Below, one piece after another: positions 1,611-19,590 of a DNA stretch of 64,000 nt (position 1 is its first letter; every line of letters begins with the position of its first letter). Under the pieces are notes generated by a model, which was given only the letters and a program-made list of their open reading frames with translations, was not told the DNA's origin and ran no database searches. Made by a program: the position numbers and the translations under genes. The stretch covers positions 62,001 through 126,000 of the forward strand of contig NZ_JAUYZI010000011.1 in the NCBI RefSeq assembly GCF_030700245.1. Direction: 5' to 3'. The DNA comes from Methylobacterium amylolyticum (GTDB lineage: Bacteria; Pseudomonadota; Alphaproteobacteria; Rhizobiales; Beijerinckiaceae).

Positions 1611-4375
<2,765 letters not shown>

Positions 4376-4379
<4 letters not shown>

Positions 4380-5032
4380 CTGCGGATGCCCCGCCCGCAG
4401 GTCCGGTCGCGGTCCTGGCGGACGACGACGAGTTCTTCCGCCTCGCGATGGCGAGCCTGCTCACGCGCCAGCTCGGATTCGGCCGCGTGGTCGAGACCGG
4501 GAGCCTGGACGAGGCGCTCGGCGCGCTGTCCGGGATCCCGGGCGCGACGCTGGCCCTGTTCGACCTGCGCATGCCCGGCATGGCCGGGGCGGGCTCGATC
4601 GCGGGCGTGCGCGCGTGCTTCCCCGCGGTCAAGACCGTGGTCCTGTCGGGTTCGACCGAGCGCGCGGACGTGCTGGATGCGCTGGCGGCCGGCGGACACG
4701 GCTACGTGCCGAAGACGCTGGGCGCCTCGGAGGTGGTGCGGGCGCTCGCCGCGATCCTCGACGGGTCGATCTACGTCCCGCCCTTCATGGCGCAGCCGGC
4801 GCCCGCCCAGGCCGCGGCGCCGGTCGCCCTGACGCCGCGGCAGCGGGACGTGCTGGGCCTGATCGTCGCCGGGCGCTCCAACAAGGAGATCGCGCGCGCC
4901 CTCGGCCTGGGCGAGGGCACCGTGAAGGTGCACGTCGCCGGGCTCCTGCGCGCGCTCGGGGTCGCCAACCGGTCCGCCGCGGCGGCGATCGGCGCGACGG
5001 TGCTCGCGGACGACCTAGGCCGATCGGCCTAG
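4376..5032 (+). CDS. Two-component response regulator, NarL/FixJ (LuxR) type
   Basis: 218 residues from a GTG whose last two bases are shared with the TGA stop of the kinase gene, so translation is coupled. The receiver domain begins VAVLADDDEFFRLAMASLL, with phospho-acceptor Asp about 63 in LFDLRMPGM and the conserved Lys in YVPKTLGASE. A LuxR-type helix-turn-helix occupies about residues 150-205 (LTPRQRDVLGLIVAGRSNKEIARAL then GTVKVHVAGLLRALGVANRS). It is the probable DNA-binding output of the hybrid kinase just upstream. The next gene in the same direction is bcsS after 242 bases, so it could regulate cellulose genes; that is positional inference. Confidence 0.93.
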
Positions 5033-5274: not shown

Positions 5275-6012
5275 ATGCCCCGCACGCTCATCGGCCTCGC
5301 CGCGGTTCTCACGGCGCAAGGATGCCCGGCCGCCCTGGCGGCGGACTGGTACACCGGCGCGGCGCCGCCTGCGGACGCCTGGATCGTGGCGGTGGACGCC
5401 TCCGCCACGGTCGGCTCGCAGGGCTCGCAGTTCGCCAGCGCCAGCCTCACCGCGGCGCCTGCGGCCGACCTCAACACCAGCGGCGTGCGCCTGCGGGTCG
5501 ACGGCCTGCTCGGGTCCTACCGGGCGGAGCGCCCCGGAGCCCCGCGCTCCATCGGCGAGCAGGCGGATCTCGCCGGCATGATCGGCTACGCGCTGGTCGG
5601 CGACAGCAGCGTGCTGTCGGGCTTCGTCGGCCTCAACGTGCGCCGCGACGAGACCTCGCACTTCGACCCGAGCGTGTCGGCCGCCCGCACCGAGGTCGGC
5701 GTGAAGACGGCGCTGGACTTCTATGCCCGCCCGACGGCCCTGACGATGGTCCACGCCACGGGCTCCTACGCGACGACCTTCAACGCCTATTACGGCCGGC
5801 TGCGGTTCGGCTTCGCGAGCTTCGCCGGAGGCTACCTCGGCCCGGAGCTCACCGCGCTGGGCGACGACAATTACCGGCAGTGGCGGGCCGGCGCGCACCT
5901 GTCGGGGATGCAGTTCGGCGCCCTCCAGTTCGGCGTCTCGGCGGGCTACGTCCACGACCACGTCCGAAAGGGCGGGGTCTACACCACGCTCGATCTGCGG
6001 ACGGGTTTCTGA
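5275..6012 (+). CDS. bcsS: Cellulose biosynthesis protein BcsS
   Basis: 245 residues with a signal peptide ending near ALA-ADWYTG (about residue 22). The rest is a series of alternating-residue beta strands with many aromatic girdle residues (SGFVGLNVRRDETSHF, TMVHATGSYATTFNAYYGRL, FGVSAGYVHDHVRKGG) and a terminal Phe, as in a small outer-membrane barrel. This matches the BcsS family found in alphaproteobacterial cellulose loci, whose exact role is unknown. It ends one base before the ATG of bcsA, so it is the first gene of the operon. With no BcsC barrel in the operon, it is the best candidate for an outer-membrane component. Confidence 0.8.
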   Translation: MPRTLIGLAAVLTAQGCPAALAADWYTGAAPPADAWIVAVDASATVGSQGSQFASASLTAAPAADLNTSGVRLRVDGLLGSYRAERPGAPRSIGEQADLAGMIGYALVGDSSVLSGFVGLNVRRDETSHFDPSVSAARTEVGVKTALDFYARPTALTMVHATGSYATTFNAYYGRLRFGFASFAGGYLGPELTALGDDNYRQWRAGAHLSGMQFGALQFGVSAGYVHDHVRKGGVYTTLDLRTGF

Positions 6013-6013
6013 G

Positions 6014-8707
6014 ATGGCCGCCGCGCCAGCCTCCGAAGCCGTCCCGCGGGCGGCCGCGACGCCGCGTCGGCGCGCCGGTCGCGCGGCGCTCGGCCTGATC
6101 TGGGCGTGCTGGACCGCCTGCGCCCTGCTCGCCCTGGGCTTCCTGGCCCAGCCGCTGAGCACGTCGGCGCAGCTCGCGCTCTGCGGCACCGCCGGCGCCG
6201 GCATGCTGGTCCTGTGGCTCCTGTTCCCGCACCGCGGCCTGCCGCGGATGGCCTTCCTGGCGCTCGGGAGCCTCGTGGTGATCCGCTACGTCTACTGGCG
6301 GTTCACGGGAACGCTGCCGAGCCTCGACGACCCGGTCGGCTTCGCGCTCGGCCTCGTGCTGGCGATGGCCGAACTCTACTGCGTGCTGATCCTCACCGTC
6401 AGCCTGATCGTCAGCGCCGACCCGCTGACGCGCGCCGCCGCCCCGGCGCTGCCGGAGGCGGACCTGCCGACGGTCGACGTCTTCATCCCGAGCTACAACG
6501 AATCCGCCGAGATCCTCAGCCTGACGGTCGCGGCCGCCAGGAACCTCGACTACCCGGCCGACCGCGTCACGGTCTGGCTCCTCGACGACGGCGGCACGGA
6601 CCAGAAATGCGCCGACCCCGATCCGGCCAGGGCCGCCGCCGCCCGGGCCCGCCGCGCCGAGCTCCAGGCCCTGTGCGCTCAGCTCGGCGCGCGCTACCTC
6701 ACCCGGGCGCGCAACGAGCACGCCAAGGCCGGCAACCTCAACAACGGTCTGAAGGCGTCGCGCGCCGAGATCGTCCTCGTGCTCGACGCCGACCACGCGC
6801 CGTTCCGCCCGTTCCTGCGCGAGACGGTCGGCCTGTTCTCGACCGACCCCAAGCTGTTCCTCGTGCAGACGCCGCACGTGTTCCTGAACCCGGATCCGGT
6901 CGAGCGGAACCTGCGCACCTTCGCGCGGATGCCCTCCGAGAACGAGATGTTCTACGGCGTCACCCAGGCCGGCCTCGACAAGTGGAACGGCTCGTTCTTC
7001 TGCGGCTCGGCCGCGCTCCTGCGCCGCGCGGCGCTGGACGAGGTCGGCGGGTTCTCCGGCATCACCATCACCGAGGATTGCGAGACCGCCTTCGAACTGC
7101 ACGCGCGCGGCTGGTCGAGCGCCTACATCGACCAGCCGCTCATCGCCGGGCTCCAGCCCGGGACGTTCGCGGACTTCATCGGCCAGCGCACCCGCTGGTG
7201 CCAGGGCATGTTCCAGATCATGCTCCTGAAGAACCCGCTGCTGAAGCGCGGTCTCAGGCCGATCCAGCGGCTCTGTTACCTCTCCAGCATGACCTTCTGG
7301 TTCTTCCCGCTGCCGCGCCTGATGTTCATGCTCGCGCCGTTGCTGCACATCTTCTTCGATGTGAAGATCTTCGTTTCCTCCATCGACGAGGCGCTGGCCT
7401 TCACGGCGACCTACATCGTCGCCAACATGATGATGCAGAACTACCTGTACGGCCGCGTGCGCTGGCCCTGGATCTCGGAACTCTACGAGTACGTGCAGGG
7501 CGTCTACCTCGCCAAGGCGATCGCCTCCGTGCTGGTCTCGCCGCGCAAACCCAAGTTCAACGTCACCGACAAGGGCGTGAGCCTGGATCGCGACCACCTC
7601 TCGCCCCTGGCGTGGCCGTACTTCGCGATCTTCGGCGCGCTGGCCGCCGGCTGCGCCACCGCGGCGTGGCGTTACCTGTTCGAGCCCGGCGTCACCGGCC
7701 TGATGCTGATCGTCGGCCTGTGGTGCCTGTTCAACCTCGTCATCGCAGGCGCCGCGCTGGGCGTCGTGGCCGAGCGCCGTCAGACCGAGCGCTGCCCGAG
7801 CCTGCCGGTCAGGCGGGACGGCGTGGCCTCCGTCGGCGGCGAGAGCTTCGCGGTCGTCGTCGAGCGTTCGGCCGCCGACGGATGCAGCCTGCGCCGCGCC
7901 GACGGTTCCGCGTGGCCCGTCTCGGTGGCCGCCGGCTCGGCCGGCGCGCTGTCGATCCCGGGCGGCACCTTCGCGCCCCTGGCGTTCCGGATGCGGGCCG
8001 ACGCCGCGGGCGACACCCGCGACGTCGCGTTCGAGCTGCCCCATCCGGCCGCCTACCGCGGGCTGGCCGAGCTCATGTACGGCGACGCGGCCCCGCTGCG
8101 GGCGTTCCTCGACGGGCGGCGGCGGCACAAGGATCTGCTGTCGGGCAGCCTGCGCCTCCTCGCCTGGGGGATCACCGAGCCGGTCCGCGCCCTCGCTTAC
8201 GTCGCGCGCGGCCTGCACCGGTCCGGCGCGGAGACGGTGATCGAGGCCGCGCCGGCCGCGACCATCGCGCGCGCGGCAGCCGCCCCGTCGGCCTTGGTCG
8301 CGGTCTCGACCGGCCGGGCTCCGGCCCTCGCCGCGCCCGCGGGCAGGGTCGCCGCCAACGTCCCGGCGCCCGCCGCCGACGAGCCGGTAGCGCGGACCAT
8401 CGCGCCGGCTGTCCTACCGGGCCTTCGGGACGCGATGCCGCGGCCGGCCCGGTCCGAGGCTCCCGAGGACCCGACGCGCCTGCCCCTGACCCGGGCCGCC
8501 TGGGCGGACGCCGTCGCCGCGCTCGCCGCGGCGGAGCAGGCTGCCGACCGCGATCGCCTGGATCCGGCGACGTGGCTCGCCGGGATCATGGCGCTCGCCG
8601 GCTCCGAGCACGCCGAGCCGGCCCGGCTCGACCTCGTGCGCGGCCCCGATTTCAGGGCGTTCGCCCGCGGCGCGGCCGAGTCCGGCCTCGACCGATCCGC
8701 CGCCTGA
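6014..8707 (+). CDS. bcsA: Cellulose synthase catalytic subunit (UDP-forming) BcsA
   Basis: 897 residues. BcsA polymerises UDP-glucose into beta-1,4-glucan and threads it through the inner membrane. N-terminal membrane helices are followed by a GT2 domain with all hallmarks: LDDGG (about 190-194), DADH (about 258-261), TED (about 351-353) and QRTRW (391-395). More membrane segments and a PilZ domain follow. The first PilZ motif is intact (RQTER, 589-593), but the second reads ERSAADG (617-623) instead of DxSxxG, with Glu for Asp and one extra residue. The C-terminal 170 residues are an Ala/Pro-rich extension without a recognisable fold. The gene starts directly after bcsS and is followed 9 bases later by bcsB. 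BcsA normally requires c-di-GMP for activity. Confidence 0.97.
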   Translation: MAAAPASEAVPRAAATPRRRAGRAALGLIWACWTACALLALGFLAQPLSTSAQLALCGTAGAGMLVLWLLFPHRGLPRMAFLALGSLVVIRYVYWRFTGTLPSLDDPVGFALGLVLAMAELYCVLILTVSLIVSADPLTRAAAPALPEADLPTVDVFIPSYNESAEILSLTVAAARNLDYPADRVTVWLLDDGGTDQKCADPDPARAAAARARRAELQALCAQLGARYLTRARNEHAKAGNLNNGLKASRAEIVLVLDADHAPFRPFLRETVGLFSTDPKLFLVQTPHVFLNPDPVERNLRTFARMPSENEMFYGVTQAGLDKWNGSFFCGSAALLRRAALDEVGGFSGITITEDCETAFELHARGWSSAYIDQPLIAGLQPGTFADFIGQRTRWCQGMFQIMLLKNPLLKRGLRPIQRLCYLSSMTFWFFPLPRLMFMLAPLLHIFFDVKIFVSSIDEALAFTATYIVANMMMQNYLYGRVRWPWISELYEYVQGVYLAKAIASVLVSPRKPKFNVTDKGVSLDRDHLSPLAWPYFAIFGALAAGCATAAWRYLFEPGVTGLMLIVGLWCLFNLVIAGAALGVVAERRQTERCPSLPVRRDGVASVGGESFAVVVERSAADGCSLRRADGSAWPVSVAAGSAGALSIPGGTFAPLAFRMRADAAGDTRDVAFELPHPAAYRGLAELMYGDAAPLRAFLDGRRRHKDLLSGSLRLLAWGITEPVRALAYVARGLHRSGAETVIEAAPAATIARAAAAPSALVAVSTGRAPALAAPAGRVAANVPAPAADEPVARTIAPAVLPGLRDAMPRPARSEAPEDPTRLPLTRAAWADAVAALAAAEQAADRDRLDPATWLAGIMALAGSEHAEPARLDLVRGPDFRAFARGAAESGLDRSAA

Positions 8708-8716
8708 GGGATCCCG

Positions 8717-11053
8717 ATGCGCAACCGCCTCAGACCGGCGCTCACCGCCGGATTCCTCGCCTGCGTCGCGGGGGACGCCCTCTGCGCCGCCGACGCCCTG
8801 GCGCAGACCTTCTCGGGGCTCGGGCCCGCGCCGGTGTTCGTGCTTCCGCAGCCGGGCGCACGGGCACCGCTGCCGGAGGTCGCCGCGGTTCCGGCCGCGG
8901 CCCGCTCGGCGCCCGTCCAGGACCGCGGCCCCAGGCTGCGGCGCCTGCCCGCGGGTGCCGCCCCCCTGCGCCTCTGGGGCGAGAACGGCTCCCTCACCTT
9001 CGCCTTCTACGCCACGGAGGCCGAAGCGCGGGCCGGCGGACGCTTCCAGGTCGGCTATCTCGCCGCCGTCTCGATCCTGCCCGAGGCCTCGCGCCTCAGC
9101 GTCGGCCTCAACGGCGCGACCCTCGGCGGCGCGCCGATCGACGGGGTGCGGGGCGCGCGCACGGTCGGCTTCGACGTCCCCCCGGGGGCGCTCGTCCGGG
9201 GCTACAACCGCATCGACCTGGCGGTCGCCCAGCGCCACCGCGTCGACTGCTCGGTGGCCGCGACCTACGAGCTCTGGACGCAGATCGACGCCGACACGAC
9301 GGGCCTGCTGTCGGGCGCCGAGGAGCCCGCCGACCCGGCCGACCTGCCCGCGATTCGCGGCGGCTTCGACGGCGCCGTGCCGGTCCGCCTGATCCAGACC
9401 GGCGAGCGCCTGAGCGAGCGCGGCGTCGAGCGCATCCTCGGGGCGCTCCAGTCCGCCGTGCTCGTCGGGCGCTTCGCGCAGCCCGCCGCCGATTTCGGCC
9501 CCACGGCCGAGGCCGGCGACGGGCTCGCCCTCGCGGTCGGCAGCGCGGCCGACCTGACGGGGCACGTCGATCCGGCGGAACTCGGCCCGATCACCGGACC
9601 CCGCCTCGCCCTCCTGCCGCGCACGGCCGAGCACCGGCCGGTGCTGGTCGTAACCGGCCGGGACGATGCGGAGGTGGCGGCCGCGCTCGCCGACCTCGCG
9701 CGGCTCCGGGCGGCCGAGCCGGTCGGCGCGCCCGCCGGGCTGCGGGCGCTGGCCGACGCGCGCGGCCGCCGGGTCGAGGGCGGGGAGACGATCACGCTGG
9801 CCGATCTGGGCCTGGCCGACGCGCACGTCGCGGCGCGCACGCACCGCATCGCCCTGGACCTCGACCTGCCGCACGACTTCCTGCCGGCCGACTACGACCG
9901 GATCGTCCTCGACGTCGACGCCGCCTATCCGGCGGGCCTCGTCCAGGGGGCGCAGATCGTCGTCGAGATCAACGGGCGCAACGCCGCGAGCGCCCCGCTC
10001 GGCCGGCCCGGCGGCGAGGCGATGAACCGGCGCTCGATCTTCCTGCCGCTCGGCCTGCTCCGCCCCGGCCTCAATCGCATCGCGATCCAGGCCGAGCTGC
10101 CCCGCGCCGACGACCGCGCCTGCGCGTCCGAGGCGGGCACGCCGACCGAGCGCCTGCATCTCGCCGCGACGACCCGCCTGACCATCCCGCCGCTCGCCCG
10201 CATCGGGCGCCAACCCGAGATCGCCGCCACCGTCGCCGCGGCCGTCCCCTACGCCGCGAGTGCCCGGCGGCCGACCCTCGTCGTCCCGTCGCCCGACCGC
10301 GACACCATGGCGGCCGCCGCGACGCTGGCCGCCAAGCTCGGGCTCGCCGCCGGCCGGCCGATCCCCTTCGCCTTCGCGGCCGGCCGCACCGTCTTCGCGA
10401 GCGCCGGCGTCGCCGGATCAGGCCTCGCGGGACCGAGCCTCGTGGTCTCGGCGGCCAAGCCCCTGGACGCGGCCACGCTCGCGGCGGCCCACATCGATCC
10501 GCAGGCCCTGCACGACGCCTGGGCCTCCCGCGAGCCGGGTGCGGCGCCGCGCGACGGCGGCCCGGCCCAGCGCCGCCGCATCCTGCGCAAGGACGGCATC
10601 GCCGCCTGCCGGGGCCGCAACCTCGCCGGGGCGGAGCCCGTCGCCGAGGCGGACAAGGCCGGCGGCGGGCCGACCCTGAAGGCGGCCTCGGCCGTCATCG
10701 CGCAGGGCGTGACCGGCCCGGGCCGGGACGACCTCCTCACCCTGGTGACGGCCCCGAGCGCGGCGGCCTTGCGCGAGGCCGTCGACTGCCTCGCCGACCC
10801 GCGGGTCTGGCGGCGGCCGGCGGGGCGGCTGGCGGCGCTCTCGTCCGTCGACGGGACGGTTGCCGTCGAGGCGGAGAACGCCCCGCGCTACATCGCCACG
10901 GCGCCGCCCGCGCCCGGCAACCTCCGCCGGATCGCCGCGGGCTGGCTCTCCCTGCACGCCGGTCTCTACGGCCTGTTCGGCCTGCTGGTGGCCGGGGGCC
11001 TCGCCGGCTCGACGCAGGTCCTGGTGCGCAATCTCGGACGGAAACCGCAATGA
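8717..11053 (+). CDS. bcsB: Cellulose synthase regulatory/periplasmic subunit BcsB
   Basis: 778 residues with an N-terminal signal sequence (FLACVAGDALCAADALAQ), a large periplasmic beta-rich region and a single C-terminal membrane helix (YGLFGLLVAGGLAGS) followed by a basic tail. This is the BcsB plan, in which the two carbohydrate-binding and two flavodoxin-like domains guide the nascent glucan across the periplasm and the tail helix anchors it to BcsA. The sequence LRLWGENGSLTFAFYATEAE near residue 75 fits the first carbohydrate-binding module. Its TGA overlaps the ATG of bcsZ (ATGA), and it starts 9 bases after bcsA, consistent with stoichiometric expression. Confidence 0.95.
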   Translation: MRNRLRPALTAGFLACVAGDALCAADALAQTFSGLGPAPVFVLPQPGARAPLPEVAAVPAAARSAPVQDRGPRLRRLPAGAAPLRLWGENGSLTFAFYATEAEARAGGRFQVGYLAAVSILPEASRLSVGLNGATLGGAPIDGVRGARTVGFDVPPGALVRGYNRIDLAVAQRHRVDCSVAATYELWTQIDADTTGLLSGAEEPADPADLPAIRGGFDGAVPVRLIQTGERLSERGVERILGALQSAVLVGRFAQPAADFGPTAEAGDGLALAVGSAADLTGHVDPAELGPITGPRLALLPRTAEHRPVLVVTGRDDAEVAAALADLARLRAAEPVGAPAGLRALADARGRRVEGGETITLADLGLADAHVAARTHRIALDLDLPHDFLPADYDRIVLDVDAAYPAGLVQGAQIVVEINGRNAASAPLGRPGGEAMNRRSIFLPLGLLRPGLNRIAIQAELPRADDRACASEAGTPTERLHLAATTRLTIPPLARIGRQPEIAATVAAAVPYAASARRPTLVVPSPDRDTMAAAATLAAKLGLAAGRPIPFAFAAGRTVFASAGVAGSGLAGPSLVVSAAKPLDAATLAAAHIDPQALHDAWASREPGAAPRDGGPAQRRRILRKDGIAACRGRNLAGAEPVAEADKAGGGPTLKAASAVIAQGVTGPGRDDLLTLVTAPSAAALREAVDCLADPRVWRRPAGRLAALSSVDGTVAVEAENAPRYIATAPPAPGNLRRIAAGWLSLHAGLYGLFGLLVAGGLAGSTQVLVRNLGRKPQ

Positions 11054-12147
11054 CCCTGCTCGGACCCGTCCTCGCGATCCTGGCCGGGATCGCGATCCTG
11101 CTGACGCCGGCCGCCGCCCAACCGTCCCGCGCGCCGGCCGCCCCGCCCCTCGTCGGCGCGCTCGACGACCCCGCGGCGTGGACCGCCTACAAGACCCGCT
11201 TCGTGACCGAGCAGGGCCGCGTCGTCGATACCGGCAACGGCGGCATCAGCCACAGCGAAGGCCAGGGCTACGGCATGCTGCTCGCCGTGGCGGCCAACGA
11301 CCGCCCGGTCTTCGAGCGGATCTGGACCTGGACGCGCGCCAACCTGATGGTCCGCGACGACCAGCTCCTCGCGTGGCGCTGGGAGCCGGACAAGCGCCCG
11401 GGCGTCGCCGACATGAACGACGCCTCCGACGGCGACCTCCTCGTCGCCTGGGCGCTGGCCGAGGCCGCCGACGCCTGGCACGACCCCTCGCACCGCGTCG
11501 CGGGCCGCCGCATCGCGGTGGAACTCGGGCGCAAGCTGATCCTGCCCAAGGCCGCCCACGGACCGGTCTTCCTGCCCGCGGTGCGGGGCTTCTCCGCCGA
11601 GGATCGCCCGGACGGGCCGGTGGTCAACCTGTCCTACTGGATCTTCCCCGCCTTCGAACGGGTGCCGCTCCTCGCGCCGGAATTCGACTGGGCGGGCCTG
11701 AGCCGCAACGGGCGCCGCCTGATCGCGCAGGCCCGCTTCGGCGCGGGCCGGCTGCCGGTGGAGTGGGTCTCGCTCGCGGAGCCCGCGCCGAGGCCGGCCG
11801 ACGGCTTCCCGGCCGAGTTCGGCTACAACGCCCTGCGCATCCCGCTCTACCTCGCGATGGCGGGCATCCGCGACGCGGACCTCTACGCGCCGTTCCTCGC
11901 CCTCTGGCGGCAGCCCGGCGCCGGCCTCACGCTGGTCGACACCGGCACCGGGCGCGAGACCGCCCGGCTGTCCGAGACCGGGTACGGCACGATCCCCGCG
12001 CTGGCAGCGTGCGCGCAGGGCGGCACCGCCTTCCCCGCCGCCCTGACCCGGGCGCGGCCCGAGAGCGACAACTACTACCCGGCGACCCTCCATCTGCTGG
12101 CGCTGGCGTCCCTGCGTTCGAGGCACCCCGCATGCGCGCCGCGCTGA
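11050..12147 (+). CDS. bcsZ: Endo-beta-1,4-glucanase BcsZ (glycoside hydrolase family 8)
   Basis: 365 residues with a cleavable signal peptide (LAILAGIAILLTPAAAQ). The GH8 catalytic acid is in SEGQGYGML (Glu about 70) and the second acidic centre in NDASDGDLLVAWAL (Asp about 127). Downstream, PAEFGYNALRIPLYLAMAG and DNYYPATLHLLALASL are conserved GH8 helices. BcsZ is a periplasmic cellulase that trims or relieves the emerging glucan and is needed for normal cellulose in many bacteria. The ATG overlaps the bcsB stop by four bases, and its 3' end overlaps the next gene by 16 bases. Confidence 0.95.
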   Translation: MTLLGPVLAILAGIAILLTPAAAQPSRAPAAPPLVGALDDPAAWTAYKTRFVTEQGRVVDTGNGGISHSEGQGYGMLLAVAANDRPVFERIWTWTRANLMVRDDQLLAWRWEPDKRPGVADMNDASDGDLLVAWALAEAADAWHDPSHRVAGRRIAVELGRKLILPKAAHGPVFLPAVRGFSAEDRPDGPVVNLSYWIFPAFERVPLLAPEFDWAGLSRNGRRLIAQARFGAGRLPVEWVSLAEPAPRPADGFPAEFGYNALRIPLYLAMAGIRDADLYAPFLALWRQPGAGLTLVDTGTGRETARLSETGYGTIPALAACAQGGTAFPAALTRARPESDNYYPATLHLLALASLRSRHPACAPR

Positions 12148-14012
12148 CCGCCTCCGTCGCGCTCGTCGCGCTCGGTACGATCGCCTGCGCCGCCGAGCCC
12201 GGCACGCGCCCCGACGAGACGGCGCTGCGCTACTACGCGAGCCAGAACCAGAGGGAGCGGGTCGAGGCGGAGGCCGCCCGCCTGCGAACGCGCTTCCCGG
12301 GCTGGACTCCGCCCGCCGACCTCTGGACCGCGCAGGCCGGCGGCGAGGACGAGGACGCGTTCTGGGACCTGCTCGCGGCCCGACGCGACGCGGACCTGCG
12401 GGCGGCGCTCGCCGCGCGGGCCGCGGCCGAGCCGGGCTGGAAGCCGTCCCCGGCGCTCGGCCAGGCGCTGGACGCGAACGCGCTGCGCGAGGCCTGCCTG
12501 CCCCTGATGAAGGCCGGGCGCTGGCCGGAGCTCGCCGACCTCGCCACCCGGCGGCGCGCCGCGTTCGAGGCGGCCGAGCCCGAGCTGGTCTGGGCCGCAG
12601 CGGAGGCGTTCGGCCGCACCGAGCGGCAGCCGGAGGCCTACGCGCTCCTGCACGCGGCCCTGTCGGGCGGGCGCTTCGGGCCGGAGGAGCGCCGGGTCAG
12701 CCTGCTGCGCGCCCTGCGTTTCCTGCCGATGGCCGACATCGACCGGCTCGCGGCCCTCGGGCCGGCGGCGGATCTCGACCCGATCCGGGTCGATCTCGCC
12801 CGCGGCCGGATCAGCGCCGTGCTGCACGACGAGGCCGGACAGTCGGTCTCGGCCGGCGACCGCGCGGCGTTCGAGGCCTACGCCGAGACGGCCCAGGATC
12901 CCGACCAGCCCGCGCTCGTCGCGTGGCTCGCCTTCAAGCAGCGCGAGCTGCCGGCCGCGCTCGCGTGGTTCAAGCGGGCGATGACCCGCGGCGGCGACGC
13001 GATGGTGGCCCACGGGCTCGCCCACACCCTGCGCCTCATGGGCTTCCGGCGCGACGCGGAGGAGGTGGCCTACGCGTGGCGCGAGCCGCTGGTGAACAAC
13101 ACGCTCCTGTTCATCGATCTCCTGGAGACCGACCTGACGAAGGAGATCCCGCCCGCGATCGAGCCCGAGCGGCTGAAGCGCTACGCCGAGGTGACCCTGG
13201 CCTCGGCCTCCGGCGAGGGCGCGCAGGCGCTGGGCTGGTACGCCTACAACGCCTGCCAGTTCGACGCGGCGCTGAGCTGGTTCCGCCGCGCGGTGGCGTG
13301 GTTTCCCAAGGAGGCGACGGTGTACGGCTACGCCTTGTCGCAGCGTCGGATGCACCAGGAGCGGGCGTTCCTCGAAACGGTGAACCGCTACGACGGGCTG
13401 TTCCCGAAGGTCGTGGACCTCCTGTTCAAGCCGGCGGAAGACCGCCCGATGCCGTGCGAGGCCGCGCCGCGCCGTCCCGCGGCGCCGGCCGCGGCGCCGT
13501 CCGGCTATCTCGACCTCGCGCCGCCGGGCGGGCAGGGGGGTTCGGGCAAGCGCGGGCGCGTGCCGCAGCCGGACGAGATCGCGTCCGGCCGCGTGGCCGC
13601 GATGCCGTCGATCCGGCGCAGCGATTTCCCCATCGCCGTCACCCCGGAGAACGACGTGCGTGCGGCGCCGACCGGCTCTCCGGTGCCCGAGCCGCGCTTC
13701 TCCGAGCGCCGACGCGGCTCGGCCCCGACCGTGGCCCGGCGCGTGCCGGGCGTGGGACCGATGCCCTACGAGCGCTACGGGTTCTCGCTGCTGCCGGCCT
13801 GGGACGGGACGGACGTCGCCCGCGCCCCGACCGCCGCCGAGGCGCCGGCACCGGCCGGGACGCTGTGGGCCGAGGAGCGCTCCGGCACCACCGCGTCCGC
13901 CCGCTCCCCCGCCGAGCCGATCACCGATCCGCGAGCGGGCGCGCCGACGACCACGGGCGCGATCACAGCGCAAGCTGTGCGTAACCAGACCGTGCGAGAG
14001 ATCAACCCGTGA
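12132..14012 (+). CDS. Cellulose-operon TPR protein without the BcsC outer-membrane barrel
   Basis: 626 residues. A short hydrophobic N-terminus (TASVALVALGTIACAAE) suggests export, possibly with lipidation, although the lipobox TIAC is not ideal. About residues 25-440 form alpha-helical tetratricopeptide-like repeats, for example QPALVAWLAFKQRELPAALA, MVAHGLAHTLRLMGFRRDAE and AQALGWYAYNACQFDAALSW. The last 180 residues are Pro/Ala/Arg-rich and look disordered. BcsC proteins join TPRs to a C-terminal beta-barrel and are usually well over 1000 residues; no barrel is seen here or in the next gene. Overlaps with bcsZ upstream (16 bases) and the BcsN-like gene downstream (GTGA) show it belongs to the operon. 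It is likely a periplasmic scaffold for cellulose export. Confidence 0.85.
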   Translation: MRAALTASVALVALGTIACAAEPGTRPDETALRYYASQNQRERVEAEAARLRTRFPGWTPPADLWTAQAGGEDEDAFWDLLAARRDADLRAALAARAAAEPGWKPSPALGQALDANALREACLPLMKAGRWPELADLATRRRAAFEAAEPELVWAAAEAFGRTERQPEAYALLHAALSGGRFGPEERRVSLLRALRFLPMADIDRLAALGPAADLDPIRVDLARGRISAVLHDEAGQSVSAGDRAAFEAYAETAQDPDQPALVAWLAFKQRELPAALAWFKRAMTRGGDAMVAHGLAHTLRLMGFRRDAEEVAYAWREPLVNNTLLFIDLLETDLTKEIPPAIEPERLKRYAEVTLASASGEGAQALGWYAYNACQFDAALSWFRRAVAWFPKEATVYGYALSQRRMHQERAFLETVNRYDGLFPKVVDLLFKPAEDRPMPCEAAPRRPAAPAAAPSGYLDLAPPGGQGGSGKRGRVPQPDEIASGRVAAMPSIRRSDFPIAVTPENDVRAAPTGSPVPEPRFSERRRGSAPTVARRVPGVGPMPYERYGFSLLPAWDGTDVARAPTAAEAPAPAGTLWAEERSGTTASARSPAEPITDPRAGAPTTTGAITAQAVRNQTVREINP

Positions 14013-15049
14013 CGCTCCCGACCCCGAACATCCTCGCTCTCGCCCTCGCGGGCCTCGCCCTGGGCGCCTGCACCGCGCGCGAATCCGCGCGGACATCCCC
14101 ACTCGCGCCGCGCTACGCCAGCCTGGACGCGGCCTTCGACGGGGGCAGGCCCGCGGCGGTGCCCCCGGCTCGGGCCGCCACGCCGGTGGCGGTCCTGCCC
14201 GACTGGATCGGACGGCCGCTGCGCCTGCGCGAGCGCGACGAGCCCGACGCCTTCGAGCAGGTCGTGACGCTGCCCCCCGCGCCGCGGGGAGCGACCCGGG
14301 AGAATCTCGTCCTGCTGCGCATGTCCCGGACCGCGTCGGCCGCCCTCGGCCCGGCCGTGGACGGGATGATGCTCGGCGGGCGGCCGACCGAGGCCGGCAT
14401 CCGGGCCGAGCTCGCCGCGGCCTTCCCCGACACGCCGATGCAGGTCGTCACCCGCTCCGCGGCGAACGCCTACGGCCCCTACGGCCTCGCCATCGGCCGC
14501 GCGCCGTCCGGTGCCCGCTGCCTCTACGCGTGGCAATGGATCGCGGACGCGCCGGTCCTCGACCCGGCGGACCGGGCCGCCGGGCCGCTGTCGCTGCGCG
14601 TGCGCCTCTGCCGCGACGACATGACCCTCGAGGCGATGGCCGCCGCCGTGAACCGGCTCACCCTGGTGCCGCGCTACGGCGGCACGCCGGTCGCCGACAC
14701 CCGACCCGCGCAGCCCGCCTCCGCGACGCGGCGGCGCGGCCACGCGCACGCGGCGGCAGCGCGGCCACGGCAGCGAACCCGCGACGCGGAGCACGACGCC
14801 GCTCCCGCCCGCACCGCGGCCGTCGAGGCACCCGCCGCGGCGCAGTCGGGGGCGGGCCGCCGCTATCTCGGCGTCGCCGAGGCTCCGCTCCTCCGACCGG
14901 AAGCCGCCCGCGACGCGTCGTACGGCGCGGCCACCGCGCGGGGCTCCGCGGCCGGCCCGGCGCCCGCGCCGCAGACGGCCACCCTGTCCGCCGACCTGCC
15001 GCCCGAGGCCCTGCGCGGCCCGCCCCCGCGGCCGCCGGGCCGACCCTGA
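14009..15049 (+). CDS. bcsN: Probable cellulose biosynthesis protein BcsN (lipoprotein)
   Basis: 346 residues from a GTG that overlaps the preceding stop. LALALAGLALGAC gives a good lipobox with Cys about residue 20, so an outer-membrane or periplasmic lipoprotein is expected. The core (about residues 70-230) contains DEPDAFEQVVTLP, NLVLLRMSR and NAYGPYGLAIGR, and has the character of the BcsN family reported next to rhizobial cellulose synthase genes. The family assignment rests on position and general resemblance. The last 110 residues are Ala/Pro/Arg-rich and low in complexity. Function in the family is not established; a role in secretion or anchoring of cellulose is inferred. Confidence 0.65.
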   Translation: MTLPTPNILALALAGLALGACTARESARTSPLAPRYASLDAAFDGGRPAAVPPARAATPVAVLPDWIGRPLRLRERDEPDAFEQVVTLPPAPRGATRENLVLLRMSRTASAALGPAVDGMMLGGRPTEAGIRAELAAAFPDTPMQVVTRSAANAYGPYGLAIGRAPSGARCLYAWQWIADAPVLDPADRAAGPLSLRVRLCRDDMTLEAMAAAVNRLTLVPRYGGTPVADTRPAQPASATRRRGHAHAAAARPRQRTRDAEHDAAPARTAAVEAPAAAQSGAGRRYLGVAEAPLLRPEAARDASYGAATARGSAAGPAPAPQTATLSADLPPEALRGPPPRPPGRP

Positions 15050-15068: not shown

Positions 15069-16544
15069 ATGGGCGACGACATCCTCCTCGTCGAAGACGA
15101 TCCCGGCTCGCAGGAGCTGATCCGCGCCCTGTGCGCAGCGCGCGGTTACGCCGTCGACGTGGCCGGGGACGGCTTCCTCGGGCTGCGCCTGCTGAGCGAG
15201 CGCCGCCACGGGATCGCGCTGATCGACTATCATCTGCCCGAGATGGACGGGTTCGCCCTTGCGCGGCTGATGCGCGAGATCGTCGGCGCGAAGGCCCGGT
15301 TGAAGCTCGTGGGCATCACCGCCGATCGGCACGGGCTCGCGTCGCGCCGGGGCGCGGACGCGCTGTTCGACGCGATCCTCGTCAAGCCGCTGGATCCGGC
15401 CCTTCTCTACGCGACGCTCGACCGATTGACCGGCCCGGAGGGATCCGCTCCGGCCGTCGAGCCGGCCGCGGCTGGACACGCGGCCGACACGCTCTGGCGC
15501 CGCCGCGGCCTCTCGGGACGGCCCCGCGCCGTGCTCTGCCCGGATCCCGGGCCGGAGGTCGCGGCGGCCGTGGGCGAGGCGTTCGAACTGGGCAGCGCGG
15601 AGACCGCCGACCTCATCCTGATCGCCGCACCCGAGGGGTTGGACGGGTTGCGGGCGCTGCGGACCGCCGGCCCGGGACGCTTCCTCCCCGCCATCGATCT
15701 GGACGGGCGCCTGCGCGGCGTCTGCGACGGCGCGTTCCGCGTCGACGATGCCGAGGCCTGGAACCGTCTGGCCGAACTCTGCCGCACCTTCGCCGCCCGC
15801 CGCGCGTCGATCCCGGCGGCGATCCGGGAATCCGACGATCCCGCCACCCGGCTGCTGACCTTCCTCCATGTCGGCGACCGGGCCCTCTCGCTCACCGCCT
15901 GTGCCGATCCCTCCGCGATGATGGCGGAGATGGGCTTGTCGCGCGCCGCGACGATGTCGGCCGTGCTCAGGCTCGCCGAGACCGGGCTGGCCGTCTGCGG
16001 TGCCTCGCCCGACGGCGTGAGCGTGCGCCTGACCGAGGCCGGGATCCGCGCCGCGACCGGCGCAGCGCGGGCCGCGCCCGATCCGGACCCGCGCGCCGCC
16101 CTCGAACGGCAGCCCTCACCCATCCCCGACCCTGCGCCGCGAACGGGTCTGGACGCCGCGCCGGATCGATCGCCGGACGATCCGATCGTCGATCACCGGC
16201 GGGTCGATGCCCTGCGAGACCTGATCGGCGAGGCCGAACTCGCGCGCCTGCGCGACGACCTTCTGACCCGCCTCGGCCAGGCGTTTCCGAGAGAAGCGCC
16301 GAGGACCAGCATCGCGCACGAGGCGCACGCCCTGATCGCCGCGGCCGGAAACCTGGGCTTCGCGCGCCTGTCGACGGCCTGCCGCGATCTCCAGACCGCC
16401 GTCTCGCAGGGCCGGGACGAGGCGGAGGCGCTGCTCCGGGCGAGAGGCGCCGTACAGGAGGTGCTCGACGCCGTCGCGGCGGTCGGATCGCGACCGCGCG
16501 CGCCGGTGCGCGCTCGACAGCCCGGCCATCATTCGGCCGCGTGA
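15069..16544 (+). CDS. Multidomain phosphorelay protein: REC, degenerate REC, winged helix, Hpt
   Basis: 491 residues. Residues 3-120 are a good receiver: DILLVEDDPGSQ, phospho-acceptor Asp 53 in LIDYHLPEMDG, and Lys in LVKPLDPALL. Residues 150-245 look like a second receiver that has lost its acidic pocket (RAVLCPDPGPEVAAAVGEAF then ETADLILIAAPEG). Residues 255-335 suggest a MarR-like winged helix (DPATRLLTFLHV, MGLSRAATMSAVLRLAETGL, VRLTEAGIRAATGA). The C-terminus is Hpt-like with IAHEAHALIAAAGNLGF (His about 420). It begins 19 bases after bcsN, so it is probably transcribed with the cellulose genes. The Hpt helix closely resembles that of the hybrid kinase upstream, which suggests a shared relay. 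The domain order is unusual, and the middle assignments are tentative. Confidence 0.8.
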   Translation: MGDDILLVEDDPGSQELIRALCAARGYAVDVAGDGFLGLRLLSERRHGIALIDYHLPEMDGFALARLMREIVGAKARLKLVGITADRHGLASRRGADALFDAILVKPLDPALLYATLDRLTGPEGSAPAVEPAAAGHAADTLWRRRGLSGRPRAVLCPDPGPEVAAAVGEAFELGSAETADLILIAAPEGLDGLRALRTAGPGRFLPAIDLDGRLRGVCDGAFRVDDAEAWNRLAELCRTFAARRASIPAAIRESDDPATRLLTFLHVGDRALSLTACADPSAMMAEMGLSRAATMSAVLRLAETGLAVCGASPDGVSVRLTEAGIRAATGAARAAPDPDPRAALERQPSPIPDPAPRTGLDAAPDRSPDDPIVDHRRVDALRDLIGEAELARLRDDLLTRLGQAFPREAPRTSIAHEAHALIAAAGNLGFARLSTACRDLQTAVSQGRDEAEALLRARGAVQEVLDAVAAVGSRPRAPVRARQPGHHSAA

Positions 16545-18129: not shown

Positions 18130-19590
18130 GTGACGGCGGGTGTCGACAGGCATGAGCTGAGGCAGATCATCGCCGGCCTGAGCGAGGGCGTGATCCTGGT
18201 CGAGCCCGACCAGACGATCACCTACGCCAACGCGGCCGCTCTGGCGATGCACGGGGCCGCCAGTCTGGACGAGATCGGGTCCACGGTCGATGCGTACCGC
18301 GCGCGCTTCGCCCTGCGCTATCGCAACAATCACGCCCTCGAGAGCTATCCGATCGAGCGGGTCGCCGCCGGGGAGACCGTCAACGACGTCGTCGTCGAGG
18401 TGCGGCGGACGGACGATCCCGACAGCACGTTCGTCCACTCGCTGCGCAGCCTCGTCGCCACCGACCGGGACGGGCGCCCGAGCTGCCTCGCCCTGGTGCT
18501 CAGGGACGTCTCCGCTCGGTTCGAGGCCGAGGAGCGCTTCGAGAAGACCTTCAACGCCAACCCGGCGCCCGCCGTCATCACGCGGCTCGCCGACCTGCGC
18601 CACGTCAAGGTCAATGCCGGCTTCCTGGAGATGACCGGCCACACCCGCGAGGCCGTGATCGGCCGCAGCGTCTACGAGGTCGACGTGCTGGCGGGCGCCC
18701 GCGACCGCGATCTCGCGGTCTCCCGCCTGCACGGGGGCGGCACCATCCCGCAGATGGAGGCCTGCCTCGACCTGCCGGACGGGGGCAGCCGCTTCGTCAT
18801 CGTCGCGGGCCAGCCGATCGAGATGGGCGATGAGCCCTGCATGCTGTTCACCTTCGCCGACCTCGAACTGCGCAAGAAGGCGGAGGCCGCCCTGCGCCAG
18901 AGCGAGGAGCGCTTCGCCCGGGCGTTCCGGATGACACCGGTGCCGACCGTGCTGGCGCGGGCGGAGAATCTCCAGGTCACGGGCATCAACGCGGCCTTCA
19001 CCCGGGTCTTCGGCCTGGGCGAGGACGGGATCGTCGGGCGCACGCTCGCCGAGGCGGGCCTGTGGGTGACCGAAGCCCAGCGCGCGTCCTTCGAGGCGGC
19101 GCTGGGCCGGCACGGCTGCGTGCCCGGCGTCGAGGTCTGCCTGCGGCACGAGAGCGGGGCGAACCTCGACTGCCTCGTCTCGGCCGAGCGCGTGAGCCTC
19201 GACGAGGCGGGGCTCGTGCTGCTGGTGCTTCAGGACATCACCGCGCGCAAGCACACCGAGCGGGAGCTGTTCGACGCCATCGAGACGGTGATGGCCGACA
19301 CCTCCTGGTTCAGCCGCGGCTTGATCGAGAAGCTCGCCGGTCTGCGCCGGCCGGGCCGCGAGGGGGCGAACGGCTCGGTGCCCGACCTGACGGTGCGCGA
19401 GCGCCAGATCCTCAACCTGATCTGCTCGGGCCTGGAGGACGACGCCATCGCACGCAAGCTCGGCCTGTCGCGCAACACGGTGCGCAACCACGGGGCCGCG
19501 CTCTACCGCAAGCTCGGGCTGCACAAGCGCGCGGAGGTGATCCTCTGGGGACGCGAGAACGGCTTTCCGGCGCGGGCTGCCGGTAGTTGA
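18130..19590 (+). CDS. PAS-PAS-PAS-LuxR transcriptional regulator
   Basis: 486 residues from a GTG preceded by GGGCGGACC. Three PAS-like segments are visible: EGVILVEPDQTITYANAAAL (about 18-37), then NANPAPAVITRLADLRHVKV followed by FLEMTGHTREAVIG (about 145-180), and MTPVPTVLARAENLQ with FTRVFGLGEDGIVGR (about 270-305). The C-terminal LuxR helix-turn-helix reads LTVRERQILNLICSGLEDDA, then NTVRNHGAALYRKLGLHKR. No kinase or receiver domain is present, so a ligand, redox or light signal sensed by PAS is probably passed directly to DNA binding. The EcfG-type promoter upstream and the CsbD-like genes downstream suggest a stress-response role. Confidence 0.9.
   Translation: MTAGVDRHELRQIIAGLSEGVILVEPDQTITYANAAALAMHGAASLDEIGSTVDAYRARFALRYRNNHALESYPIERVAAGETVNDVVVEVRRTDDPDSTFVHSLRSLVATDRDGRPSCLALVLRDVSARFEAEERFEKTFNANPAPAVITRLADLRHVKVNAGFLEMTGHTREAVIGRSVYEVDVLAGARDRDLAVSRLHGGGTIPQMEACLDLPDGGSRFVIVAGQPIEMGDEPCMLFTFADLELRKKAEAALRQSEERFARAFRMTPVPTVLARAENLQVTGINAAFTRVFGLGEDGIVGRTLAEAGLWVTEAQRASFEAALGRHGCVPGVEVCLRHESGANLDCLVSAERVSLDEAGLVLLVLQDITARKHTERELFDAIETVMADTSWFSRGLIEKLAGLRRPGREGANGSVPDLTVRERQILNLICSGLEDDAIARKLGLSRNTVRNHGAALYRKLGLHKRAEVILWGRENGFPARAAGS

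Follow-up and report, generated by a model that had tools for sequence, protein, structure and literature searches.

A Methylobacterium cellulose operon with a barrel-less BcsK scaffold and a predicted outer-membrane barrel, BcsS, as candidate exit channel

The window, i.e., the whole stretch of DNA that was analysed (64,000 nucleotides from Methylobacterium amylolyticum), carries a compact cellulose operon of six intact open reading frames in the order bcsS-bcsA-bcsB-bcsZ-bcsK-bcsN (Table 1). One base lies between bcsS and bcsA and 9 bases lie between bcsA and bcsB, and the remaining genes overlap, by 4 bases at bcsB/bcsZ, 16 at bcsZ/bcsK (the TPR gene) and 4 at bcsK/bcsN. The initial annotation had described a complete and overlapping operon of this composition, and the gene coordinates and uninterrupted frames confirm it. 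The bcsS and bcsN products belong to the Pfam families PF17036 (8e-36; 124 bits against a curated cut-off of 24) and PF17038 (6.4e-22; 78.3 bits against a curated cut-off of 25.6), respectively, and the closest BcsA found is that of Methylobacterium sp. J-048 (80% identity). Pfam gave no match for BcsD, BcsE or BcsG in the operon's six proteins or in the one that follows them. The TPR gene placed between bcsZ and bcsN encodes a BcsK-type protein in place of BcsC, which is a feature of type III cellulose operons.

Table 1. Features of the cellulose operon, in positions of the window.
Feature	Position	Strand	Remarks
bcsS, proposed exit channel	5275..6012	+	Signal peptide (judged by eye) and predicted 12-stranded outer-membrane beta-barrel; C-terminal F
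WYTG segment, BcsS residues 25-28	5347..5358	+	Just after the likely cleavage site of the signal peptide
bcsA, cellulose synthase catalytic subunit	6014..8707	+	TIGR03030 (NCBIfam, CelA), 815 bits, cut-off 699
bcsB, periplasmic co-polymerase	8717..11053	+	PF03170, 5.8e-36
bcsZ, GH8 periplasmic endoglucanase	11050..12147	+	PF01270, 2.3e-43; NF008305 match under its cut-off
bcsK, barrel-less periplasmic TPR scaffold, 626 aa	12132..14012	+	Weak TPR matches; family common to bcs operons across the order
Proline-rich BcsK tail, codons 431-626	13422..14009	+	Occupies the place of the terminal TPR in relatives without linked bcsS
PYERYGF motif, BcsK residues 545-551	13764..13784	+	In the tail
bcsN, predicted lipoprotein, 346 aa	14009..15049	+	Globular domain at about residues 57-224, then disordered tail

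BcsC-less type III operons with BcsK, including that of Methylobacterium, are already known, and their lack of a pore has been noted as a puzzle. A Starkeya operon is likened to type IIIb, e.g., that of Methylobacterium extorquens, with BcsK replacing BcsC (PMC6559018, citing Romling and Galperin 2015); BcsK is compared to AlgK as well as to the first portion of BcsC, the function of BcsN being called unclear (PMC9012009); BcsK is described as frequent in type III systems, with scaffolding as its only role (PMC11470070); and a novel export mechanism has been suggested from the finding that some Alphaproteobacteria have lost BcsC (Bundalovic-Torma et al.; PMC7112194). The type III(b) bcs operons of Methylobacterium, Starkeya, Shinella and Agrobacterium share with the window BcsA, BcsB, BcsZ, BcsK in the place of BcsC, and BcsN. 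Compared with these published passages, the window adds a linked BcsS and a BcsK with a proline-rich, PYERYGF-containing tail instead of the terminal TPR. The name BcsS is merely listed in one cellulose paper (PMC9693552), and no other cellulose paper naming BcsS was found in the literature searched, which includes few subscription papers. The absence of BcsC is thus not new, operons with BcsK in its place being in print (PMC6559018, PMC9012009, PMC11470070, PMC7112194), and the variant with BcsS and a shortened BcsK was found described nowhere in the literature searched.

The window BcsK has only weak Pfam TPR matches (residues 264–286 and 365–393) and no barrel domain. Its proline content is 15.8% past residue 430 vs 5.8% before. 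In the place of a 16-stranded C-terminal barrel of the BcsC type it has a disordered-like tail, and it has no match to PF05420, the BcsC barrel model. Outer-membrane barrels usually end in an aromatic residue; BcsK ends in the non-aromatic REINP and BcsS ends in Phe. The Pfam result and the tail composition agree with the original description of a TPR protein that ends in disordered sequence and lacks the BcsC barrel. BcsK has no clear lipobox. When PDB sequences were searched, the window BcsK sequence alone gave no match at E ≤ 1, and the BcsK profile matched 20 sequences at E ≤ 0.01, all of them generic TPR proteins and none named BcsC.

A full-length BcsC or barrel partner encoded elsewhere in the genome and required for cellulose had been named in the initial annotation as the finding that would speak against a split system. 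The profile search with PF05420 gave no match in the whole 6.57 Mb genome, and a BcsC elsewhere in the genome was rejected. The assembly consists of 136 contigs with a completeness given as 100, so an overlooked barrel of this family is unlikely, though not impossible. As a control, the same model was run over 385 genomes of the class and matched in 15 of them (in 14 above the cut-off), and it therefore does detect BcsC barrels in this class. CelA was matched at E ≤ 1e-150 in 66 of 297 genomes of the order, at 68 places. When these CelA-bearing genomes were searched with the barrel and accessory families PF05420, PF17036 and PF17038, the BcsC barrel was found in 0/66, BcsS in 10/66 and BcsN in 59/66, leaving 56/66 without a match to either barrel family. 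Type III systems must therefore exist that do without both, and BcsS was rejected as the exit used by type III systems in general. In operons lacking bcsS, no replacement barrel gene recurs beside the bcs genes in gene lists made with a simple gene caller and similarity clustering, in which names were given by similarity and small genes may be missed.

AlphaFold2, run with 20 relatives, predicts BcsS to have 12 strands (mean pLDDT 85.7, pTM 0.79), in line with its earlier description as a barrel-like product. BcsS also has a signal peptide, as judged by eye, an even number of strands, alternating hydropathy in most strands and a C-terminal aromatic residue, as do outer-membrane barrels; the C-terminal residue is Phe in 64 of 65 operon-type BcsS sequences and Tyr in the other (1/65). 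With the BcsS model as query, Foldseek gave 29 matches at E ≤ 0.001, every one an outer-membrane barrel, with modest TM-scores of 0.26–0.53 by query length among the best 45 matches listed. The best VIA-align matches are autotransporter barrels, led by BrkA (Z 16.5, rmsd 3.4, 198 aligned), behind which the oligosaccharide porins KdgM (Z 15.1, rmsd 3.6, 169 aligned), VhGalP (Z 14.7, rmsd 3.7, 189 aligned) and NanC (Z 13.6, rmsd 3.9, 175 aligned) are nearly tied. These three are 12-stranded monomeric barrels similar in size to BcsS; they differ from it in being uptake porins, export being proposed for BcsS, and in sequence family. Although the fold is alike, BcsS has no KdgM/NanC family match, PF17036 being its sole Pfam match at E ≤ 1, and the BcsS profile has no match at E ≤ 1 among PDB sequences.

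Certain positions of BcsS are strongly conserved. With inward and outward positions assigned from hydropathy and not from coordinates, the higher conservation over the 12 strands lies at the inward positions (mean difference from the outward positions 0.146; sign-flip p 0.0028), and 2 of the 12 strands show the opposite trend, with outward positions the more conserved. Thirteen residues are invariant in all 59 unique operon-type sequences (Asp41, Arg72, Arg74, Tyr82, Tyr105, Tyr173, Arg175, Glu191, Gln202, Arg204, His208, Asp228 and Tyr236). Trp25, Tyr26, Thr27 and Gly28 are each conserved in at least 90% of these 59 sequences, and on the basis of this conservation the WYTG segment, which falls partly in a low-confidence region of the model, is a possible docking or plug segment.

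The bcsS gene is closely tied to the synthase gene. The named BcsS loci number 56 and come nearly all from Methylobacteriaceae and relatives; bcsA lies in the same locus in 54 of them, and in 45/56 the full A, B, Z, K and N set stands beside bcsS. In three of these 54 (L104, L106, L108) bcsS is divergent from the operon at a distance of about 3 kb, and the two loci lacking bcsA are L127, which stops about 200 bases past bcsS, and L128, which does not. Among the 10 BcsS-bearing genomes of the order, bcsS adjoins bcsA in eight (nine operons, two of them from the source genome) and lies apart from bcsA in two (G454 and G652). Two other orders contain BcsS as well, one of them in 1 of 40 genomes and the other in 3 of 42, and in 4/4 of these genomes it adjoins a CelA-like GT2 protein (L085, L086, L145, L146). 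Two of these synthases were scored, at 282 and 235 bits (under the NCBIfam CelA cut-off of 699); both have the DxD and TED motifs, and neither matched the plain QxxRW pattern. The synthase frame of L146 is split in two pieces. Profiles of BcsB, BcsZ, BcsK and BcsN had no match near the BcsS–synthase pairs, over surrounding stretches of 20.0 and 14.9 kb for two of them and about 1.5 kb on each side for the remaining two, and a whole-genome search found BcsB in 0/4 of these genomes (one of which is 76% complete).

BcsS paralogues also occur away from cellulose genes. The source genome holds a second complete bcsS-A-B-Z-K-N operon (L009, contig C104) and a third BcsS paralogue (L010:8877-9635, contig C1), which is divergent from an ExoD-family gene (PF06055, L010:9909-10529); a gene of the same similarity cluster as this neighbour occupies this place in seven of the nine unlinked BcsS loci fetched from the order.

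The C-terminal end of BcsK differs between operons with and without linked bcsS. BcsK was matched in 112 loci, seven of which were left out of the comparison of ends, three for scores under 300 bits (L055, L104, L106) and four that are cut by contig or stretch ends (L015, L046, L064, L097; L104 and L106 are also on the list of cut loci), and removal of near-identical BcsK (L013, L014, L016, L019) reduced the remaining 105 to 101. L031 was scored as lacking linked bcsS, and its genome (G454) has an unlinked BcsS. A C-terminal TPR-like stretch is present in all 52 BcsK from operons without linked bcsS, with Pfam TPR matches at this end in some of them (L061, L024), and positions 569–658 of the BcsK family profile match TPR proteins. 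This terminal TPR is missing in 46 of 53 BcsK with linked bcsS vs 0/52 without. The motif P[YFW]E[RKQ][YF]G[FYW], located in the proline-rich tail, shows the same distribution (44/53 vs 0/52). After near-identical rows are removed, the TPR is missing in 43/49 and the motif present in 40/49 of the loci with linked bcsS, and the lost TPR was found in no other open reading frame of those 43 loci. From this sequence pattern, PYERYGF is a possible docking motif of the BcsK tail.

Both bcsS and the terminal TPR are present in 7 of 53 loci (six after de-duplication), as would be expected of a lineage that gained bcsS first. If regain is excluded, about three losses of the terminal TPR are placed on the BcsA tree (a single tree, built by a quick method and with several open forks), all within the bcsS-carrying clade, which makes up 32.9% of the branch length, giving a chance figure of 0.035. 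Without the exclusion of regain, the unrooted minimum is two changes, and an independent-pairs test offers 1–2 pairs, which is too few. The confinement of the BcsK change to the bcsS clade is suggestive support for an exit role of BcsS, and is not proof of it.

The window BcsN was initially annotated as a lipoprotein, and its lipobox (LGAC, residues 18–21) supports this. The confident part of its AlphaFold2 model is one small globular alpha/beta domain. Foldseek gave no match to this model at E ≤ 0.001, and VIA-align gave LpqN, PsbP, Apa and DcrB at Z of about 8, a level at which the program warns of a merely common arrangement; for example, 3lyd_A (Z 8.2, rmsd 4.0, 131 aligned) and 6e5d (Z 8.2, rmsd 3.6, 131 aligned). 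We read the predicted core as a Mog1/PsbP-like fold, and the model suggests that BcsN is an accessory protein, small and globular. A Wza- or PelC-like pore is not supported, given the lack of a Foldseek match and the VIA-align Z of only about 8; other folds are still possible. In de-duplicated operons without linked bcsS, the lipobox is present in 45 of the 47 BcsN detected (five more operons had no BcsN found). In de-duplicated BcsS operons it is present in just 24/49 BcsN, so lipid anchoring is no fixed trait of the BcsS group.

We put forward BcsS, fed by BcsK, as the exit channel of this operon, a reading that we consider about evenly balanced between right and wrong. The functions of BcsC (TPR scaffold and 16-stranded pore) would be taken over by two separate parts, BcsK and BcsS. 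BcsA and BcsB would make the glucan and move it into the periplasm, BcsZ would trim it, BcsK would lead it across the periplasm and BcsS, as a small 12-stranded barrel, would release a single chain through the outer membrane. The BcsK of this lineage no longer has the terminal TPR, which by comparison with BcsC would be the portion adjoining the pore; in its stead is a flexible tail whose conserved motifs may serve for docking to BcsS or BcsN. BcsN would be an accessory protein, periplasmic or lipid-anchored. Computation shows the parts themselves, the absence of the BcsC barrel, the predicted barrel of BcsS, the bcsS–bcsA linkage and the altered BcsK end; an open BcsS lumen, cellulose as its cargo and contact between BcsS and BcsK are inferred. 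The split export system of TPR scaffold, lipoprotein BcsN and small barrel BcsS proposed in the initial annotation is thereby retained in its barrel part, with a predicted BcsS barrel tied to the operon and no BcsC, and weakened in its use of BcsN as a lipid-anchored export component, with the lipobox lacking in 25/49 and a small globular core.

Known systems offer partial parallels. BcsC is a single protein with a 16-stranded barrel (PMC11379886), and AlgK–AlgE has been likened to BcsC (PMC4646962). Like the window, the E. coli type II system has a periplasmic TPR scaffold beside an outer-membrane barrel and an operon with BcsA, BcsB and BcsZ, but in the window scaffold and barrel are separate genes, 12 strands are predicted instead of 16 and PF05420 has no match. 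In AlgK–AlgE, as in the window, TPR protein and barrel come from separate genes. With its 18 strands AlgE is larger than BcsS, and AlgK is a lipoprotein, unlike the window BcsK with no clear lipobox.

An exit role for BcsS has to be set against the 56 of 66 genomes with neither BcsS nor BcsC barrel, the 2 of 10 genomes with unlinked BcsS and the 7 of 53 BcsK that keep the terminal TPR, as well as against the low number of BcsK losses (about three), the two strands with the opposite conservation trend, the modest Foldseek TM-scores and the BcsS paralogues apart from cellulose genes. Moreover, a 12-stranded BcsS would be narrower than the 16-stranded BcsC, and its conserved charged inward residues could close the lumen. 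BcsS might instead be an accessory outer-membrane protein (an anchor, a modulator, an adhesin-like protein or a closed barrel), with the pore being an unlinked barrel of another family that binds BcsK and is common to the type III systems of the order. We hold this to be a serious possibility of clearly less than even probability, mainly because those 56 genomes manage without BcsC and BcsS; no alternative barrel gene recurs beside their bcs genes, the order-wide set consists of A, B and K, with N in 59/66, and the terminal TPR conserved in 52/52 BcsK without linked bcsS could dock such a pore. However, searches covering PF05420, PF17036 and PF17038 identified no such barrel, and an unlinked pore leaves unexplained the linkage of bcsS to bcsA (54/56), the BcsS–synthase pairs of other orders and the restriction of the BcsK change to the bcsS clade.

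Lipoprotein oligomers serve as the conduit in some capsule systems, and BcsK and BcsN could likewise form a barrel-free conduit in the outer membrane, with BcsS just helping. The presence of BcsN in 59/66 CelA-bearing genomes of the order and of its lipobox in 45/47 cases outside the bcsS group is consistent with this, but the predicted BcsN core consists of a single small alpha/beta domain whose confident region shows neither a pore-like nor a long amphipathic element, 25/49 BcsN in de-duplicated BcsS operons lack the lipobox and seven of the 66 genomes lack a BcsN match, so that we regard it as improbable. Even less credit is given to an operon that is no active exporter, its product being periplasmic or the operon decaying so that no exit is needed. 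The degenerate c-di-GMP motif of the window BcsA and the second complete bcs operon in the genome would fit such a state, but none of the six overlapping frames is interrupted, the full set of six genes is found again in 45/56 named loci and floc formation in Shinella requires related type III operons (PMC9012009).

If BcsS is the exit channel, cellulose export would be modular, with scaffold and pore as separate, swappable parts. The comparison points to one candidate gene, for one lineage, in answer to how cellulose leaves BcsC-less cells; export in most of the order must be explained without BcsS. A broader proposal, which we advance tentatively and consider rather doubtful, is that BcsS is the founding member of a class of channels for polysaccharide exit, 12-stranded barrels that are stand-alone partners of a cellulose-type synthase. 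The simplest form, represented by the pairs from two further orders of Alphaproteobacteria, would be synthase plus BcsS and no other part of the Bcs set, while a full takeover of the exit by BcsS would have let BcsK drop its pore-facing TPR in the lineages of Methylobacterium and Methylocystis-Methylosinus.

Two further observations concern regulation. The PilZ c-di-GMP motif [DN]xSxxG is degenerate or absent in the window BcsA (6014-8707). Of the 43 de-duplicated operons that combine bcsS with a shortened BcsK, 39 lack this motif, and its retention is seen in 50/52 operons without linked bcsS and in 6/6 with bcsS and a full BcsK. Judged by this motif, the synthases that lack it may have lost the usual activation by c-di-GMP. 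Signalling genes flank the operon on both sides (1611-5032, 15069-16544 and 18130-19590), with a PAS histidine kinase, a LuxR-type response regulator, a response regulator with an Hpt domain and a PAS-LuxR protein among their products, and these may regulate the cellulose operon.
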